From Candidatus Rokuibacteriota bacterium (GTDB lineage: Bacteria > Methylomirabilota > Methylomirabilia > Rokubacteriales > CSP1-6): 64,000 bases of DNA. Shown here piece after piece: positions 12,784-43,603 of the stretch. A program made the position numbers and the translations under genes. The stretch's first letter is position 1. Each line of letters begins with the position of its first letter. Below the pieces are notes generated by a model. The model was not told the origin of the DNA, did not search any database, and saw only the letters and a list, made by a program, of their open reading frames with translations. Where the stretch lies: positions 1 through 64,000 of the forward strand of contig QHTB01000149.1 in the NCBI GenBank assembly GCA_003220615.1, written 5' to 3'.

Positions 12784-13986
12784 ATGATTTCGGTGCGGGA
12801 TGGGCAAAATCGCATCCTGGCCCAGATCGATCGCAGCACCGCTCCGGAAATTCTTCCCCTCACGTCCGCGCTCGGTCGCGTGCTCGTCGAGAACGCGCGC
12901 GCGCCTTTCGACGTTCCGCCCACCGACAACTCCGCCGTCGACGGATACGCAGTCGGCGCCACCGACATTCCCGCGAGCGGCACGCGCGAACTGACCGTCG
13001 TCGCCGATCTGCCCGCGGGCGCCGTGTTCCCCGGTGCGCTCGCCACCGGTCAGGCCGTGCGCATCATGACGGGCGCCCCGATCCCGACGGGCGCCGACAC
13101 GGTGTACCCGCAAGAGATCGTCGAGCGCAGTGGATCACACGTGCGCGTCGGGCCCATCGAGCGCGGCATCAACGTGCGCCACCGCGGCGAAGACGTGATC
13201 GCCGGCACCGTCGTGATCCCCGGCGGCAGCGTGCTCCGGCCACAGGAATTGGGGCTGCTCGCGTCGCTCGGCCACACGCAGGCGCTGGTGGCTCAGCGCC
13301 CGCGCGTCGCCCTGCTCTCCACCGGCGACGAGGTGGCCGAGCCGGGCACGCCGCGCAAGCCGGGCCAGATCTACGACGCCAATCGCTTCACGCTGCGCGG
13401 CTTCGTCGAGCAGTGCGGTGGCAGCGTGACCGACCTCGGGATCGTGCCCGACGAGCGCGACGTCCTGCGCGCGCAGTTGCTCGAGGCGAGCCGGATCGCC
13501 GACGTGGTGATGACGTCCGGCGGCGTCTCGGTGGGCATCTACGATCTGGTCAAGGCCGTGCTCGGCGAGATCGGCGGGATCGACTTCTGGCAGGTCGCGA
13601 TGCAGCCGGGACGGCCGCTGGCCGTCGGCCGGATCGGCGACGCGCACTTCTTCGGCCTGCCCGGCAACCCCGTGGCCTCGTCGTTGACGTTCATGCTCTT
13701 CGTCCGTCCCGCGCTCTTCAAGCTGGCCGGGCGCCGGCGCCTCTTCCCGGAGGCCTGGCAGGCGCGCGCGATCGAGCCGATGAGGAAGAAGACGGGACGG
13801 CGGGAATTCAAGCGCGGCGTCCTCAAGTTCGCCGACGGCGGATGGGAAGTGAGGACGACGGGGCCGCAGGGCTCCGGCATCCTGTCGTCGATGGTCATCG
13901 GAAATTGTCTGATCGTGCTGGAGGAGGATCGGGGCGACGTGGCAGCCGGTGAGGCGGTGACGGTGGAGCCGTTCGTTTGTGAGTGA
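12784..13986 (+). CDS. moeA: Molybdopterin molybdenumtransferase MoeA
   Basis: A 400-residue enzyme that inserts molybdate into adenylated molybdopterin, the last common step of molybdenum cofactor synthesis in the cytoplasm. The order of domains is standard: the N-terminal MoeA region with PPTDNSAVDGYAV and MTGAPIPTGADTV, then the MoCF-binding domain with STGDEV near 180, SGGVSVGIYD near 250 and GLPGNPVASS near 295, then the C-terminal beta-domain. The length is normal. The ATG at 12784 follows a TATAAT box by 7 bases. It overlaps the next gene (tldD-like) by 8 bases and leads the plus-strand operon that runs to 19394. No other moa/moe/mob genes are visible nearby. Confidence 0.95.
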   Translation: MISVRDGQNRILAQIDRSTAPEILPLTSALGRVLVENARAPFDVPPTDNSAVDGYAVGATDIPASGTRELTVVADLPAGAVFPGALATGQAVRIMTGAPIPTGADTVYPQEIVERSGSHVRVGPIERGINVRHRGEDVIAGTVVIPGGSVLRPQELGLLASLGHTQALVAQRPRVALLSTGDEVAEPGTPRKPGQIYDANRFTLRGFVEQCGGSVTDLGIVPDERDVLRAQLLEASRIADVVMTSGGVSVGIYDLVKAVLGEIGGIDFWQVAMQPGRPLAVGRIGDAHFFGLPGNPVASSLTFMLFVRPALFKLAGRRRLFPEAWQARAIEPMRKKTGRREFKRGVLKFADGGWEVRTTGPQGSGILSSMVIGNCLIVLEEDRGDVAAGEAVTVEPFVCE

Positions 13987-15553
13987 TCTCCGGCCCGGCG
14001 TCCGGGTCGAGCTGATCGACCGCATCAAGCCGGACGTCCGCGACATCGTTCGCGACGGCGCCCGACGCCTGCCGCACCTCGCCTATGCCGACGTGAGGAT
14101 CGAGATCATCGAGGCAAAGTCGGCGACGGCTGAGAACGGCGGCGGGAAGTCGAGCAGCGACGACTACGCGTTCGGCCTCGGCGTCCGCGTGCTGGCGGGC
14201 GACCGCGCGCTGGCCCCGGGGTATCTCGGCCTCGCGCTCGGCGCGGCCGACGTCGAGGATCTGCCCCGGGTCATCCGCGACGCCCTCGAGCGCGCCTACC
14301 GGCGCGCCCTCGTCAACGCCGAGATGAAGGCCGACGCGCGCGAGAAGTTCGGGCCGCTCGGCGCCGCGCTGGCCGACACGCGGCTCCATCCGATCGACGC
14401 CCTCGAGGACACGGTGGCCGCGGTCTACGAACGCGATCCACGCGCGATGCGCATCGAGGACATCCTCGCCTACACCGTCGACATCTCGCGGCAGGTCGCG
14501 GCCGTGGACCGCCGGCTCACGTACAACTGGATCGCCACGCTCACCCAGCTCTCCCGCGAGCTGTTCGCCTCGTCCGAAGGCAGCCTCATCGATCAGGCGT
14601 TCGCATTGACCCAGGGGAGCTGCTCCGTGGTCGGCCTGTCGGGCGCCGTGAGCCAGGATCTCTACGACGTCGTCGGCCATCAGCGCGGCTGGGAGATCCT
14701 CGAGCGCGGCGTCGACGAAGCGCTCATTCGCTTCCCGGCCTTTCCGGAGTTTTGCCTGGACCTCGCGCGCGAGGCCGTCGCCCTCAGCGAGGCGCCGGCG
14801 CTGCCGACCTCCGAGCGCGAGGTCGTCGTCGTCACCGATCCGCACTACAACACGCTCGTGTCTCACGAGATCATCGGCCATCCCGTCGAGCTCGATCGCG
14901 CTCTCAAGATGGAAACGGCGTACGCCGGCCGCTCCTGGCTGCTCCGGGGTCTCGACGAGCACCAGGTCGGCAAGCAGATCGCGTCACCGCTGGTGACGGC
15001 GTTCTCCGACCCGGGCCTGCCCGGCTACGGTCACTATCGCTACGATCACGAGGGAACGCCGGCGCGACGCGTGGTCCACATCGCCGAGGGCGTCCTCCGC
15101 GGCTTCATGAACAGCCGCCAGACGGCGGCGCTCTTCGGCGGAGAGCCGAACGGCCACTACAAGGCGACCGAGCCCGCGATGGTCCCGCTCATCCGGATGT
15201 CGAACACCGTCTTCGCCGGCGGTGATCGCGACCCGCGCGCCATCGTCCGGGAGGTCGACCACGGGTACTACATCGCGGGCCACCGCATCCCGTCCATCGC
15301 CGAGAGCCGCGAGAACTTCCGCATCTCGGCCCGGCGCGTCTACGAGATCGAGAAGGGCGAGCTGGGACGCCTCTACCGAGACGGCGGCATCGCCGCCGAC
15401 AGCCGCGATTACCTGATGAACGTGGATGCCGTCGGCTCCGACTTCCTGCTCTACCCGATTCCGAACTGCGGCAAGGGCCAGCCCATGCAGACGAAGAAGC
15501 TCGGCAACGGAGGACCGACGATGCGCAGTCGGGCGAAGGTCATCGGGAGCTGA
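13979..15553 (+). CDS. TldD-like metalloprotease (first TldD/PmbA pair)
   Basis: A 524-residue protein of the TldD/PmbA family. Known TldD/TldE heterodimers are zinc proteases that degrade unfolded peptides and mature microcin B17. The zinc motif HEIIGH lies at 296-301, followed by PVELDRA where TldD has a downstream acidic ligand. YDHEGTPARR and a C-terminal NCGKGQP segment match TldD-like proteins. It is longer than the classical TldD at 37872 and only distantly similar, so this is a separate subfamily. GTG 13979 overlaps the moeA stop. The next gene, the Sec-rhodanese, starts 2 bases after its stop, and a PmbA-like partner follows. Confidence 0.85.
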   Translation: MSDLRPGVRVELIDRIKPDVRDIVRDGARRLPHLAYADVRIEIIEAKSATAENGGGKSSSDDYAFGLGVRVLAGDRALAPGYLGLALGAADVEDLPRVIRDALERAYRRALVNAEMKADAREKFGPLGAALADTRLHPIDALEDTVAAVYERDPRAMRIEDILAYTVDISRQVAAVDRRLTYNWIATLTQLSRELFASSEGSLIDQAFALTQGSCSVVGLSGAVSQDLYDVVGHQRGWEILERGVDEALIRFPAFPEFCLDLAREAVALSEAPALPTSEREVVVVTDPHYNTLVSHEIIGHPVELDRALKMETAYAGRSWLLRGLDEHQVGKQIASPLVTAFSDPGLPGYGHYRYDHEGTPARRVVHIAEGVLRGFMNSRQTAALFGGEPNGHYKATEPAMVPLIRMSNTVFAGGDRDPRAIVREVDHGYYIAGHRIPSIAESRENFRISARRVYEIEKGELGRLYRDGGIAADSRDYLMNVDAVGSDFLLYPIPNCGKGQPMQTKKLGNGGPTMRSRAKVIGS

Positions 15554-15554
15554 C

Positions 15555-15974
15555 GTGCGCCGGCCGCTCGTGATCATCGTCGCGGCCGCCCTGCTCCTGG
15601 TGGGCGCCGCACCCGCCGCGCCACCCGATGCTCCCGTGAGCTACATCGGCGTCGAAGAGCTGAAGCTCCGGCTCGATCGCGGCGAGAAGGCCGACATCAT
15701 CGACGTCAGGACGTGGCCGGAGTACCGCGAGCGCCACATCAAGGGCGCGCGCTCGATTCCGATCCGAACCCTCAGCGATCGCGCCCAGGAGATTCCCCAG
15801 TCCGGCCTCGTCGTCTTCTATTGAACGTGCCCCCACGCCCTGGCCCGGGGGGCCAGCAACATCCTGTACGTCCTCGGCTGGCGCAACCAGCGCGTCCTCG
15901 ACGAGGGGCTGCCCGGTTGGTATCAGCACGGCTACCCCATGGAGGGCACGGACGTCCCCGGGCCACGCTCGTGA
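15555..15974 (+). CDS. Selenocysteine-containing rhodanese-like protein
   Basis: With UGA 15822-15824 read as Sec this is a 139-residue exported rhodanese-domain protein. Residues 5-20 form a signal-like hydrophobic segment. The domain shows IDVRTWPEYRERHIKGARSIPI, then VVFY-U-TCPHALARGASNIL and VLDEGLPGWYQHGYPME, all standard rhodanese landmarks. Sec90 sits at the first Cys of the YCxCP active-site loop and Cys92 is retained, giving a U-x-C redox pair. Translation past the UGA continues for 49 codons in perfect family register to TGA 15972. A GC hairpin at 15840-15856 fits a SECIS. It lies between tldD-like and pmbA-like genes. The lack of any clear SD suggests coupling to the upstream stop 2 bases away. 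Confidence 0.88.
15840..15856 (+). promoter_or_regulatory. Candidate bacterial SECIS element (rhodanese)
   Basis: A perfect 7-bp stem, CTGGCCC (15840-15846) with GGGCCAG (15850-15856), closes a GGG triloop (or 6 bp with a 5-nt loop). The loop begins 22 nt after the UGA, within the range described for bacterial SECIS elements, and is all G, as favoured for SelB binding. Confidence 0.68.
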
Positions 15975-15981
15975 GTCGCGC

Positions 15982-17544
15982 GTGACCGCCACCGAGCTGG
16001 CGAAGGCGGCGCAGGACGCGTTCGCATTCGTCAGCGCCCAGCCGGGCGTGACGGAAGTGGAGGTCTTCGCGGCGTCGAACGCAACGCTGCTGACGCGTCT
16101 GAACTACACCTCGCACATCCCGTCCAACGGCGTGGAGGAGCCGAAGTCCGTCGCATCGCGGGGCCTCGGGCTCCAGGTCGTGTTCGCCGGGCCGGGTGGC
16201 GGCGCGAGCATCGGCTTCGGCAGCGAGGCGGCCGACCTCACCGTGCGCGGCGCCGAGCGCGCGCTCGCCAAGGCTCGCCAGGCGGCGGTCGTCGATCCCG
16301 AGTTCGTCTCGCTGGCGCGTCCCACGTCGCGTCAGGCGCGCACGCTGACGAACTATCACGATCAGCGGCTGATGGCGCTCGACGACGCGAGCCTCGTCGA
16401 GAGCGGCTGGCGGGTCGTGGGCGGAGGCCTGCGGACATTCCTGGCCTCGTCGCGGCTGGCCGAGCTGGCCGGGAGCGACGAGGGGTTGCGCGCGCTCGGC
16501 CTCATCCTGGGCGGTGACGTCACCGTGTTGCAGGAGCGCGTGGCCCTGATCTCGACGGCGATGCCGCGCGTGCAGACCGACGAATCGACGCTCATCACCG
16601 CGTTCGTCACGGCGATGGTGGAGGCGCGCCAGGCCAAGGGCTCGGGCTGGTCCACCGGCACGCGCCTCGACGAGTTCACCGACGAGGCCGGAGTGGAAGC
16701 CGCCCAGAACGCCGTCGCCTCCATGGGAGGCGCCCGCGTGCCCTCGGGCGAGTACACGATCGTGTTCGGGCGCCAGCCGGTGACCGACCTGATCAACAAC
16801 CTCGTCGTGCCGGCCTGCATGGCCAGCTCCTTCTACTCGTCGAGCACGCCGTTCCTCGGCCGGCTCGGCCGGGCGATCGCGTCGCCCCGACTGAACGTCT
16901 ACGACGACGGCGCCCACCCCGGTTTCATGGGCAGCAAGGGCATCACGTGCGAGGGCTTGCCGACGGGGCGCACCGACCTGATCCGGGACGGTGTGCTGGT
17001 CGGTTGTCTCAGCAACTGGTACGAGACCCAGCGACTGCTCCGCGATCCCGAGCTCCTGACCAAGCTCGGCGCCCAGGGACCCGTGGCCGAAGGTGCGCTG
17101 AGCCCGCGCAACGGCTTCCGCTTCGGCGACGGCGGGGGCCGTCAGTTCGACAACCAGCCCAGCGTCGCCGCGTCGAACGTCGTCGTGGAAGGCGCCGATC
17201 CGGTCTCGCACGAGGAGCTCGTGCGCCACGTGCGCGACGGGCTCTACATCGGCCGCATCTGGTACACGTATCCGATCAACGGCCTGCGGGCCGGTGATTT
17301 CACCTGCACCGTCGTCGGCGACTCGTACATCATCCGCGACGGCCGCCTGGCCGAGCCGCTGCGGCCGAACGTGATCCGGATCAACGACAACATCGCCAAC
17401 ATCCTCACCAACGTCGTCGGCGTCACCAAGGACGTGAAGGGCACGATCGTGTGGGCCGCCGACGAGGTCGTCTACGCGCCGGAGATCGCCGTGTCGCGCG
17501 TGCGCGTGGACGCCATCGCCGGCTTCATGGAGGAGCTGCCCTGA
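15982..17544 (+). CDS. PmbA/TldE-like protein (first TldD/PmbA pair)
   Basis: A 520-residue TldD/PmbA-family protein without an HExxH motif, so it would be the non-catalytic partner of the TldD-like protein at 13979. The C-terminal half shows family features (YTIVFGRQPVTDLINNLVVP, FTCTVVGDSYIIRDGRLAEPL). It starts at GTG 15982, 7 bases after the Sec-rhodanese stop, and its own stop overlaps the ATG of the transketolase subunit (ATGA type). Partnership with the TldD-like protein is inferred from synteny. Confidence 0.82.
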   Translation: MTATELAKAAQDAFAFVSAQPGVTEVEVFAASNATLLTRLNYTSHIPSNGVEEPKSVASRGLGLQVVFAGPGGGASIGFGSEAADLTVRGAERALAKARQAAVVDPEFVSLARPTSRQARTLTNYHDQRLMALDDASLVESGWRVVGGGLRTFLASSRLAELAGSDEGLRALGLILGGDVTVLQERVALISTAMPRVQTDESTLITAFVTAMVEARQAKGSGWSTGTRLDEFTDEAGVEAAQNAVASMGGARVPSGEYTIVFGRQPVTDLINNLVVPACMASSFYSSSTPFLGRLGRAIASPRLNVYDDGAHPGFMGSKGITCEGLPTGRTDLIRDGVLVGCLSNWYETQRLLRDPELLTKLGAQGPVAEGALSPRNGFRFGDGGGRQFDNQPSVAASNVVVEGADPVSHEELVRHVRDGLYIGRIWYTYPINGLRAGDFTCTVVGDSYIIRDGRLAEPLRPNVIRINDNIANILTNVVGVTKDVKGTIVWAADEVVYAPEIAVSRVRVDAIAGFMEELP

Positions 17545-18458
17545 TGCCAGACGCCCGTCTCGAGTCCATCGCCCGCGAGTGCCGCGTGCAGATCATCCGC
17601 ATGCTGACCCACGCCGGCTCCGGCCATCCCGGCGGCTCGCTGTCGGTCATCGACCTCGTGGTGTCGATCATGTTCGGTCGCATGCGTCACGATCCGAAGC
17701 GTCCCGACTGGCCCGAGCGCGATCGCCTGATCCTGTCCAAAGGCCACGCGGTGCCCGCGATGTACGCGGCGATGGCACGCGCGGGATACTTTCCCGAGGA
17801 GCGCTTGATCACGCTGCGCAAGCTCGGCAGCCCACTCCAGGGCCATCCCGATCGGATGGCGCTGCCCGGCATCGAGGCGGCCACCGGCTCGCTCGGCCAG
17901 GGCCTCTCGATCTCGCTCGGAATGGCGCTCGGCTTTCGCCTCGGCGGGAAACCCAATCGCGTGTACTGCATCCTCGGTGACGGCGAGATCCAGGAGGGTC
18001 AGGTCTGGGAGGCGGCCATGGAGGGACCGAAGCTCGGTCAGCCTGGGCACGGCCTCGGCAACCTGACGGTGATCCTCGACGAAAACCGGATCCAGCTCGA
18101 CGACTTCGTGGCGAAGATCCTCGACCTCGAGCCGGTGGTCCAGAAGTGGCAGGCGTTCGGCTGGCCGGTGATCGAGATCGACGGTCACGACCTCGATCAG
18201 ATCGGCAAGGCGCTCGATCAGGCCCAGGCCCACACCAACGGCCCGACGTTCATCGTCGCCCATACCGTCAAGGGCAAGGGCGTCTCGTTCATGGAGAACA
18301 ACCCCGAGTGGCACGGCAAGGCTCCCAAGCCATCGGAAGCCATTGCGGCCATCCGAGAGATCCTCGGCGGCAGCGCTGCCGGTTGGGACGGCTATCTCGC
18401 CAAGGACAGCGCGACGGCCGCCATCGTCGCCGAGCTCAGCGCCCTCGACAAAAAGTAA
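17544..18458 (+). CDS. Transketolase, N-terminal (TPP-binding) subunit
   Basis: A 304-residue split transketolase subunit. HAGSGHPGGSLS near 26 binds the TPP pyrophosphate side, SKGHA is near 68, GSLGQGLS near 117, and GDGEIQEGQ near 146 is the TPP-magnesium motif. The C-terminal part (GHD..I, NPEWHGKAP) is standard. It works with the subunit encoded 9 bases downstream to transfer two-carbon ketol units in the pentose phosphate pathway, or perhaps a related sugar pathway. ATG 17544 overlaps the preceding stop. It belongs to the moeA operon by position. Confidence 0.92.
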   Translation: MPDARLESIARECRVQIIRMLTHAGSGHPGGSLSVIDLVVSIMFGRMRHDPKRPDWPERDRLILSKGHAVPAMYAAMARAGYFPEERLITLRKLGSPLQGHPDRMALPGIEAATGSLGQGLSISLGMALGFRLGGKPNRVYCILGDGEIQEGQVWEAAMEGPKLGQPGHGLGNLTVILDENRIQLDDFVAKILDLEPVVQKWQAFGWPVIEIDGHDLDQIGKALDQAQAHTNGPTFIVAHTVKGKGVSFMENNPEWHGKAPKPSEAIAAIREILGGSAAGWDGYLAKDSATAAIVAELSALDKK

Positions 18459-18467
18459 GGAGCCACG

Positions 18468-19394
18468 ATGCCCGCGAAAGCCACTCGCGCCGCCTTCGGT
18501 GAAGCGCTGCTCGAACTGGGTGCCCGCGACGAGCGCATCGTCAGCGTGGACGCCGACCTCTCGAAGTCGACGATGACCGTGAGCTTTGCCAAGAAATTCC
18601 CCGGCCGAGCCTTCAACGTCGGCATCGCCGAGCAGAACGCCATCGGCATCGCGGCCGGCCTCGCGCTGGCCGGCCAGATCCCGTTCGTCTGCTCGTTCGC
18701 CTGCTTCCTGGCCGGCCGCTTCGAAACGATCCGCATCTCGGTCGCCTACACCAACGCCAACGTCAAGCTGGTGGGCACGCACGCGGGGATCGCGATCGGC
18801 GAGGACGGCTACAGCCAGATGGGCCTGGAGGATGTTGCCTGCCTGCGCGCGCTGCCCAACATTCCCATCATCCAGCCCGCCGACGAGCACGAGACGAAGC
18901 AGGTCATCGCCTACGCCGTCGAGCACGAGGGCCCGCTCTACCTCCGACTCACCCGCCAGAACATGGAGCCGGTGTGCCCGCCCGACTCGCGCTTCCGTCT
19001 CGGCCGCTGGCTCACGCTCAATGCCGGCGCCGACGTGACGCTGGTCGGCTCGGGCGGGCCAATCGCCAACTGCCTGGCGGCGGCGAAGATCCTGGCCGCC
19101 GACGGGATCTCGGCCGAGGTCGTCAACGCGTCGTCGATCAAGCCGCTCGACGAGGAGGCGCTCCTGGCCTCGGCCGGACGAACGGGTCACATCGTGACGG
19201 TCGAGGATCACTCGATGGCGGGCGGGCTCGGCGGCGCCGTCGCCGAGCTGCTCTCCGAGGTGCTGCCGACGCCCCTCAAGCGTCTGGGCGTCCAGGGCTT
19301 CGGCGAATCGGGCGACGCCAAGAGCCTCTACGCCAAGCACGGACTGGATCCGGCCGGCATCGCCGGCAGCGTGAGAAAGTTCTTGAACCGCTAA
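18468..19394 (+). CDS. Transketolase, C-terminal (pyrimidine-binding) subunit
   Basis: A 308-residue partner of the N-terminal subunit. The pyrimidine-binding domain (residues 1-160) includes FNVGIAEQNAIGIAAGLAL with the catalytic Glu of IAEQN, and THAGIAIGEDGYSQMGLEDV. The C-terminal domain follows (VEDHSMAGGLGGAVAELL). AAGGAG lies 6-11 bases before ATG 18468, a good ribosome binding site. It is the last gene of the plus-strand operon; the nickel-transporter gene beyond it is convergent, with 25 bases between stops. Confidence 0.92.
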   Translation: MPAKATRAAFGEALLELGARDERIVSVDADLSKSTMTVSFAKKFPGRAFNVGIAEQNAIGIAAGLALAGQIPFVCSFACFLAGRFETIRISVAYTNANVKLVGTHAGIAIGEDGYSQMGLEDVACLRALPNIPIIQPADEHETKQVIAYAVEHEGPLYLRLTRQNMEPVCPPDSRFRLGRWLTLNAGADVTLVGSGGPIANCLAAAKILAADGISAEVVNASSIKPLDEEALLASAGRTGHIVTVEDHSMAGGLGGAVAELLSEVLPTPLKRLGVQGFGESGDAKSLYAKHGLDPAGIAGSVRKFLNR

Positions 19395-43394: not shown

Positions 43395-43433
43395 AAAAAA
43401 CAAAACGACCGCGCCCACAAAGCGGGTGCGGCC
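43395..43433 (-). terminator. Intrinsic terminator of the TPP riboswitch
   Basis: On the minus strand GGCCGCACCC pairs with GGGCGCGGTC (one mismatch, one G-U) around a 7-nt loop, followed by TTTTGTTTTTT. The 5' arm is perfectly complementary over 11 bases to CGGGTGCGGCC in the aptamer, so an antiterminator can form instead. Confidence 0.8.
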
Positions 43434-43439
43434 GTGTCG

Positions 43440-43530
43440 ACGCCGTGTTCCCTTCGCTGGAATTACCCAGATCAGGTTCGAGGGGTCCCGGGCCGCACCC
43501 GGTTCTCAGGAATCCTCCCCCCACGACGAC
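43440..43530 (-). promoter_or_regulatory. TPP riboswitch (THI element)
   Basis: On the minus strand the aptamer shows CTGAGA (43509-43504) and ACCCCTCGAACCTGATCTGG with GTAATTCCAGCGAAGGGA, the conserved TPP-binding halves. A short hairpin (CCGGG-TGCGG-CCCGG) lies in the linker after CTGAGA. It precedes thiS-thiG-thiE by about 60 bases and should lower their expression when thiamine pyrophosphate is plentiful, through the terminator at 43395-43433. Confidence 0.95.
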
Positions 43531-43603
43531 GATCGGAGTATACCACCGTCGGTCATCGCACGACGGCCACACCTCCGATGTTGCCGGGTTACCGGCGAGT
43601 GGC

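Follow-up and report, generated by a model that had tools for sequence, protein, structure and literature searches.

A predicted selenoprotein gene in a tldD-tldE operon

The 64,000-nucleotide stretch of DNA analysed here (the window) contains a short rhodanese-domain gene with an in-frame UGA, situated between two protease-subunit genes (Table 1). The GTG at 15555, two bases past the tldD stop codon, is the start of this gene. The TGA at 15822-15824 lies in frame with it, corresponds to residue 90 of 139, and is followed by 49 sense codons before the TGA stop at 15972-15974. The initial annotation had placed the in-frame UGA at the catalytic Cys of the rhodanese loop (VVFY-U-TCPH), and we find the same arrangement, with the frame reading on to the domain end VLDEGLPGWYQHGYP. 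With the UGA read as a residue, the protein has a PF00581 (Rhodanese) match that spans residues 33-124, across the UGA, with E = 1e-14 and a score of 55.2 bits against a gathering score of 22.2, which assigns it to the rhodanese superfamily. In its motif, Y-U-T-C-P-H, the catalytic position is a Sec codon, the +2 Cys is invariant and a His stands at +4; we refer to proteins of this kind as UxC rhodaneses. The hydrophobic N-terminal segment appears export-like as judged by eye, and most relatives have a similar one that ends in APA. A single-sequence AlphaFold model of the protein reached a pLDDT of 49, too low to judge the geometry of the U-x-C loop. Genome-wide reassignment of UGA was considered as well and is ruled out, because both tldD and the rhodanese gene themselves terminate in UGA.

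Table 1 Features of the locus (window coordinates)
Feature	Position	Strand	Remarks
MoeA, first gene of the conserved block	12784..13986	+	overlaps tldD
TldD-like metalloprotease subunit	13979..15553	+	PmbA_TldD_3rd; HExxxH visible; NF040952 123.6 bits against an equivalog cut-off of 635
Predicted UxC-type rhodanese-domain selenoprotein gene	15555..15974	+	GTG start, internal Sec UGA, UGA stop; 139 aa; PF00581 1e-14
Signal-peptide-like N-terminal segment RRPLVIIVAAALLLVGAAPAA	15555..15620	+	no lipobox Cys; read from the sequence by eye
Predicted Sec codon (UGA) in the catalytic position of the rhodanese loop	15822..15824	+	TGA in 39/39 orthologous loci; Cys in YCACP relatives
Cys codon at +2, partner in the U-x-C motif	15828..15830	+	invariant across the clade (38/38)
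Predicted bSECIS hairpin CTGGCCC-GGG-GGGCCAG	15840..15856	+	fold, published constraints, codon freezing, covariation
PmbA/TldE-like partner	15982..17544	+	PmbA_TldD_3rd (PF19289)
Transketolase N-terminal subunit, downstream in the conserved block	17544..18458	+	
Transketolase C-terminal subunit	18468..19394	+	

Conservation of the UGA codon

We surveyed 57 genomes of one Methylomirabilota family at a match threshold of E <= 1e-15. Matches were obtained in 41 of them, and 39 of these 41 carry exactly one in-frame TGA. The TGA occupies the same codon in all 39 orthologous loci, far beyond chance, and every one of these loci reads Y-U-[T/A/G/S]-C-P-H-A. The 39 loci represent 38 distinct ones, as a single sequence is shared by G039 and G054 (L033 and L035); this contig sequence is identical in two genomes of different genera, probably through cross-binning, and its tldE is apparently reduced to a remnant. 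Across the 57 family genomes, no Cys version at the UGA codon was found within the UxC clade at this threshold, and no UxC protein was found in the phylum beyond the family of the window. The two remaining matches, together with more in other families, are remoter rhodaneses that mostly carry Cys at this position (mostly YCACP, one YCRCS). The UxC proteins are monophyletic (support 99/98) in a tree built from 76 rhodanese domains, and the nearest non-Sec outgroup proteins have Cys (YCACP) at the Sec column. The gene thus has an in-frame UGA where homologues have Cys, as expected of a bacterial selenoprotein. Neither UAA/UAG codons nor random residues occupy the position in sister genomes: the sisters share the UGA and remoter relatives have Cys. 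A weak relative with 26% identity was detected in Anaerovirgula multivorans by a protein scan of genome contigs, and a phmmer search against the PDB matched only solved rhodanese-domain proteins, none of them named as a selenoprotein.

An alternative reading is that translation terminates normally at this UGA, leaving an 89-aa truncated protein and a downstream frame that is either a relic or the product of a sequencing error for TGC. In its favour, standard annotation would stop at this codon, and the window genome has 5.5% contamination. However, all 39 orthologues have the TGA, the residues downstream are conserved (GWRN, LDEG, GW, YP), the codons of the downstream hairpin are frozen and the genome encodes the full Sec machinery; an assembly error in particular is excluded because 38 distinct loci carry the UGA. 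We therefore consider ordinary termination extremely improbable.

Selenocysteine machinery

All of selA, selB, selC and selD are present in the window genome, so the absence of the machinery, which would have spoken against a selenoprotein, does not apply. The tRNA-Sec gene (C54:10627) scores 69.7 bits, above the cut-off, and is called tRNA-SeC with anticodon tca (UCA) by ARAGORN. SelA (594 bits) and SelB (366 bits) both exceed their equivalog cut-offs, and their genes adjoin each other close to the tRNA-Sec gene. The SelD encoded on C152 (345 bits) is a selenoprotein too, with its Sec in the site AACAGU. Across the phylum, 84 of 95 genomes have SelB. Three genomes with UxC rhodaneses (G025, G042 and G052), all draft assemblies, gave no match to SelA or SelB, and SelD was found in all three; possibly a contig is missing from each assembly.

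The predicted SECIS hairpin shows RNA-level selection

The initial annotation had described a 7-bp hairpin with a GGG loop, and we recover it with the stem starting 16 nt past the UGA and a UGA-to-loop spacing of 22 nt. Published constraints on bSECIS elements are a loop of 3-9 nt that starts with G, a stem of 4-16 bp, a spacing of 16-37 nt and an MFE <= -7.5 (PMC13188914). The window hairpin falls within every one of them, with a loop of 3 nt and a leading G, a 7-bp stem, the 22-nt spacing and about -12 kcal/mol.

Codons +6 to +11 after the UGA coincide exactly with the hairpin and are held to nearly one synonymous form each across the UxC family: Leu is CTG in 38/38, Ser TCC in 20/20, Ala GCC in 36/38 and Ser AGC in 32/32, and Arg uses CGG or CGT only. 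The hairpin Gly is GGG in 36/36 sequences, compared with 12% of the glycines in neighbouring genes, and all four codons are in use at the invariant Gly at +18. The hairpin stretch is more stable than its synonymous shuffles in the window (p = 0.024), and folding across the UxC family gave a mean z of -1.44, against -0.6 to +0.5 for eleven control stretches.

Rhodaneses of the phylum with CxU or UxU loops carry a similar hairpin top (GCC CGK GTG G, compared with GCC CGK GGG G in UxC genes) at an equal distance from their own UGA. Within the protein motif, the position of the UGA differs by two codons between these groups, so the agreement in spacing is a feature of the RNA. Both sides of the outer pairs 16-32, 17-31 and 18-30 change between UxC and CxU/UxU genes while pairing is mostly kept. 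Among 53 distinct sequences, the inner pairs hardly vary, and the outer ones switch among A-U, G-C, C-G and U-A. Pair 18-30 is paired in 51/53, and 0 of 20,000 permutations, which ignore relatedness, did as well. Slid registers performed far worse (0.26-0.61 paired, against 0.90). Judging from these sequence patterns, the hairpin of UxC genes is under selection at the RNA level.

Taken with the conserved codon and the Sec machinery, these data make it very probable that 15555-15974 encodes a single-domain rhodanese-fold selenoprotein, apparently exported and translated within a moeA-tldD-rhodanese-tldE-transketolase operon, in which the UGA would be decoded as Sec by the genome's own tRNA-Sec, SelA, SelB and SelD under the direction of the hairpin. 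The core of the initial annotation, a rhodanese-fold selenoprotein with a catalytic Sec in a U-x-C motif, directed by a SECIS element and lying in a tldD-tldE operon, has outlived those refutation tests that could be run.

Relationship to known Sec-rhodaneses

Early selenoproteome papers already list Sec-rhodaneses (PMC1088965, PMC2398784), and a 2026 inventory gives the rhodanese-like forms UxxS, UxxG, CxU (NF041203), UxxG and UxxxxU (TsoB) (PMC13188914). The UxC rhodanese is absent from that inventory, although an earlier mention elsewhere is possible. Form 3 of the inventory, NF041203 (rhodanese_LYCAU), shares the rhodanese fold and a Sec in a CxC-type loop with the window protein, and the SECIS core of NF041203-type CxU rhodaneses in this phylum agrees with that of the window gene in shape and spacing. 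Its Sec, however, is at the second position (YCxUP) rather than the catalytic first, the two fall into separate groups in the tree, and the window protein, with its UxC motif, scores only 42.9 bits against the NF041203 cut-off of 115. Forms 1, 2 and 4 (UxxS, UxxG; PMC13188914) likewise have Sec at the first motif position, but are set apart by their published motifs, as U-T-C-P of the window protein has Pro at +3. TsoB (NF045694, UxxxxU), a rhodanese/DsbD fusion-like selenoprotein, also has a Sec-rhodanese domain, but it is a fusion of 572 positions, for which the window protein reaches 22.4 bits against a cut-off of 805.

Outside the selenoproteins, the PspE-type periplasmic rhodanese (PRK10287) resembles the window protein as an exported single rhodanese domain, with export of the latter judged by eye, but it is an enzyme with Cys, and the window protein scores 23 bits where the PspE cut-off is 102. 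The nearest Cys-only relatives are YCACP rhodaneses of the same phylum (L061-L065; 34-41% identity), which share the export-like N-terminus and the CxC-type loop but have Cys in both positions and do not adjoin tldD or tldE. Because the UxC form is absent from the 2026 table and the window protein lies below the cut-offs of NF041203, TsoB and PspE, the UxC proteins constitute, by sequence comparison, a new subfamily among the already-known Sec-rhodaneses.

A conserved operon that can do without the rhodanese

PF19289 confirms the TldD-like and PmbA/TldE-like identities of the flanking genes: PmbA_TldD_3rd is found in both and HExxxH in TldD, as expected of a TldD/TldE pair, and neither gene reaches the E. 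coli or archaeal TldD equivalog cut-offs. In loci of sufficient length, the genes keep the order moeA-tldD-rhodanese-tldE-transketolase N-transketolase C, and 37/39 UxC loci, across many genera, adjoin tldD and/or tldE. Genera g2, g11, g15, g20 and g23 have this block but lack the rhodanese, and in families f5, f6, f7 and f10 tldE follows tldD without an intervening gene; where the flanks were covered, they are again moeA and tkt.

The initial annotation had hinted at a selenium- or sulfur-redox role tied to the TldD/E protease pair. Such a partner might, for example, keep a substrate peptide reduced or persulfidated. Gene order across many genera is what backs this idea. Against it, many relatives have this operon with no rhodanese in it, and the N-terminus of the rhodanese suggests export (by eye), whereas TldD/E of E. 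coli is cytoplasmic. Direct cooperation with TldD/E is therefore a weak rival, which we regard as improbable. Since so many relatives have the same operon without it, the rhodanese is a dispensable passenger, and the protease pair does not need it.

Several loci vary around this position. The tldD-tldE gap of L123 (G022 C293) consists of the rhodanese signal peptide and its last dozen residues (MKRFLTIPLL...VPEKYPTAVTALRKP), which suggests an internal deletion. In L109, L113 and L126, from genera g12 and g18, the gene after tldD resembles an enoyl-CoA hydratase by eye; it lies between tldD and tldE in L113, and in L109 a rhodanese fragment comes after it, cut by the contig end. Elsewhere in the window, a TPP riboswitch is present at 43431-43531 on the reverse strand (60.7 bits).

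A possible redox mechanism

The UxC protein may represent a redox, reductase-like version of the PspE-type periplasmic rhodaneses rather than a plain sulfurtransferase. In the periplasm, the Sec selenolate would take up sulfane sulfur or attack a persulfide or disulfide; the +2 Cys would resolve the intermediate, forming an Se-S bond and releasing sulfide or a reduced product; and a periplasmic thiol reductant would regenerate the enzyme. We put this mechanism forward tentatively; in it, Sec is the nucleophile, Cys the resolving residue, and sulfane sulfur or thiols of the periplasm are the targets.

A serious rival is that the selenoprotein acts as a true sulfurtransferase or selenium carrier, with a Sec-S-SH or Sec-Se(H) intermediate handed on to an acceptor; the +2 Cys would then be structural or protective. 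The rhodanese fold itself favours such a role, as do the detectable relationship to the rhodanese domains of MnmH (tRNA selenouridine synthase) and MoeZ/MoeB and the presence of moeA in the same operon. However, U-x-C is a typical redox pair with an invariant +2 Cys, the protein looks exported whereas MoeA and tRNA modification are cytoplasmic, and no obvious acceptor protein is encoded alongside. On balance we consider a transferase or carrier role unlikely, yet clearly more probable than cooperation with TldD/E.

Four Cys/Sec arrangements in one phylum

Rhodanese loops of Methylomirabilota comprise CxC, CxU, UxU and UxC, that is, all four Cys/Sec combinations. It is conceivable that, within this set, the UxC clade is a hitherto undescribed selenoenzyme of the periplasm, in which Sec as nucleophile and Cys as resolving residue serve to reduce sulfane sulfur (or selenium), and that the SECIS element moved with the UGA or re-arose at the same spacing; we hold this combined reading as possible only. 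The comparison lends good support to a further subfamily of Sec-rhodaneses, whose U-x-C arrangement is unlisted and whose proteins standard annotation would truncate. Four Cys/Sec arrangements of one loop in one phylum also offer a natural series for testing the role of selenium at each position. A recent prediction assigns the largest bacterial selenoproteome to one MAG of this phylum (PMC13188914).

The view that Sec-rhodaneses are rare, expressed in the initial annotation, fails in this phylum, where several kinds can share one genome. The window genome encodes three more, all CxUP: L003 (G000 C144:737-1069; FCSUP), L004 (G000 C221:10670-10987; YCTUP) and L007 (G000 C154:47865-48173; YCTUP), two of which come after a VTT/DedA-like membrane domain (weak Pfam match). 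Short rhodaneses with two loop UGA codons (YUTUP) occur in families f6 and f7 (L068, L069, L070, L132, L133, L134 and L135), with a SECIS-like core positioned by the second UGA. The window genome also carries a TsoB-like single rhodanese, L005 (G000 C39:2621-3076), with the loop YCGGPN-U, in which Sec lies five residues after the Cys; its TGA is found at the same codon in four relatives.
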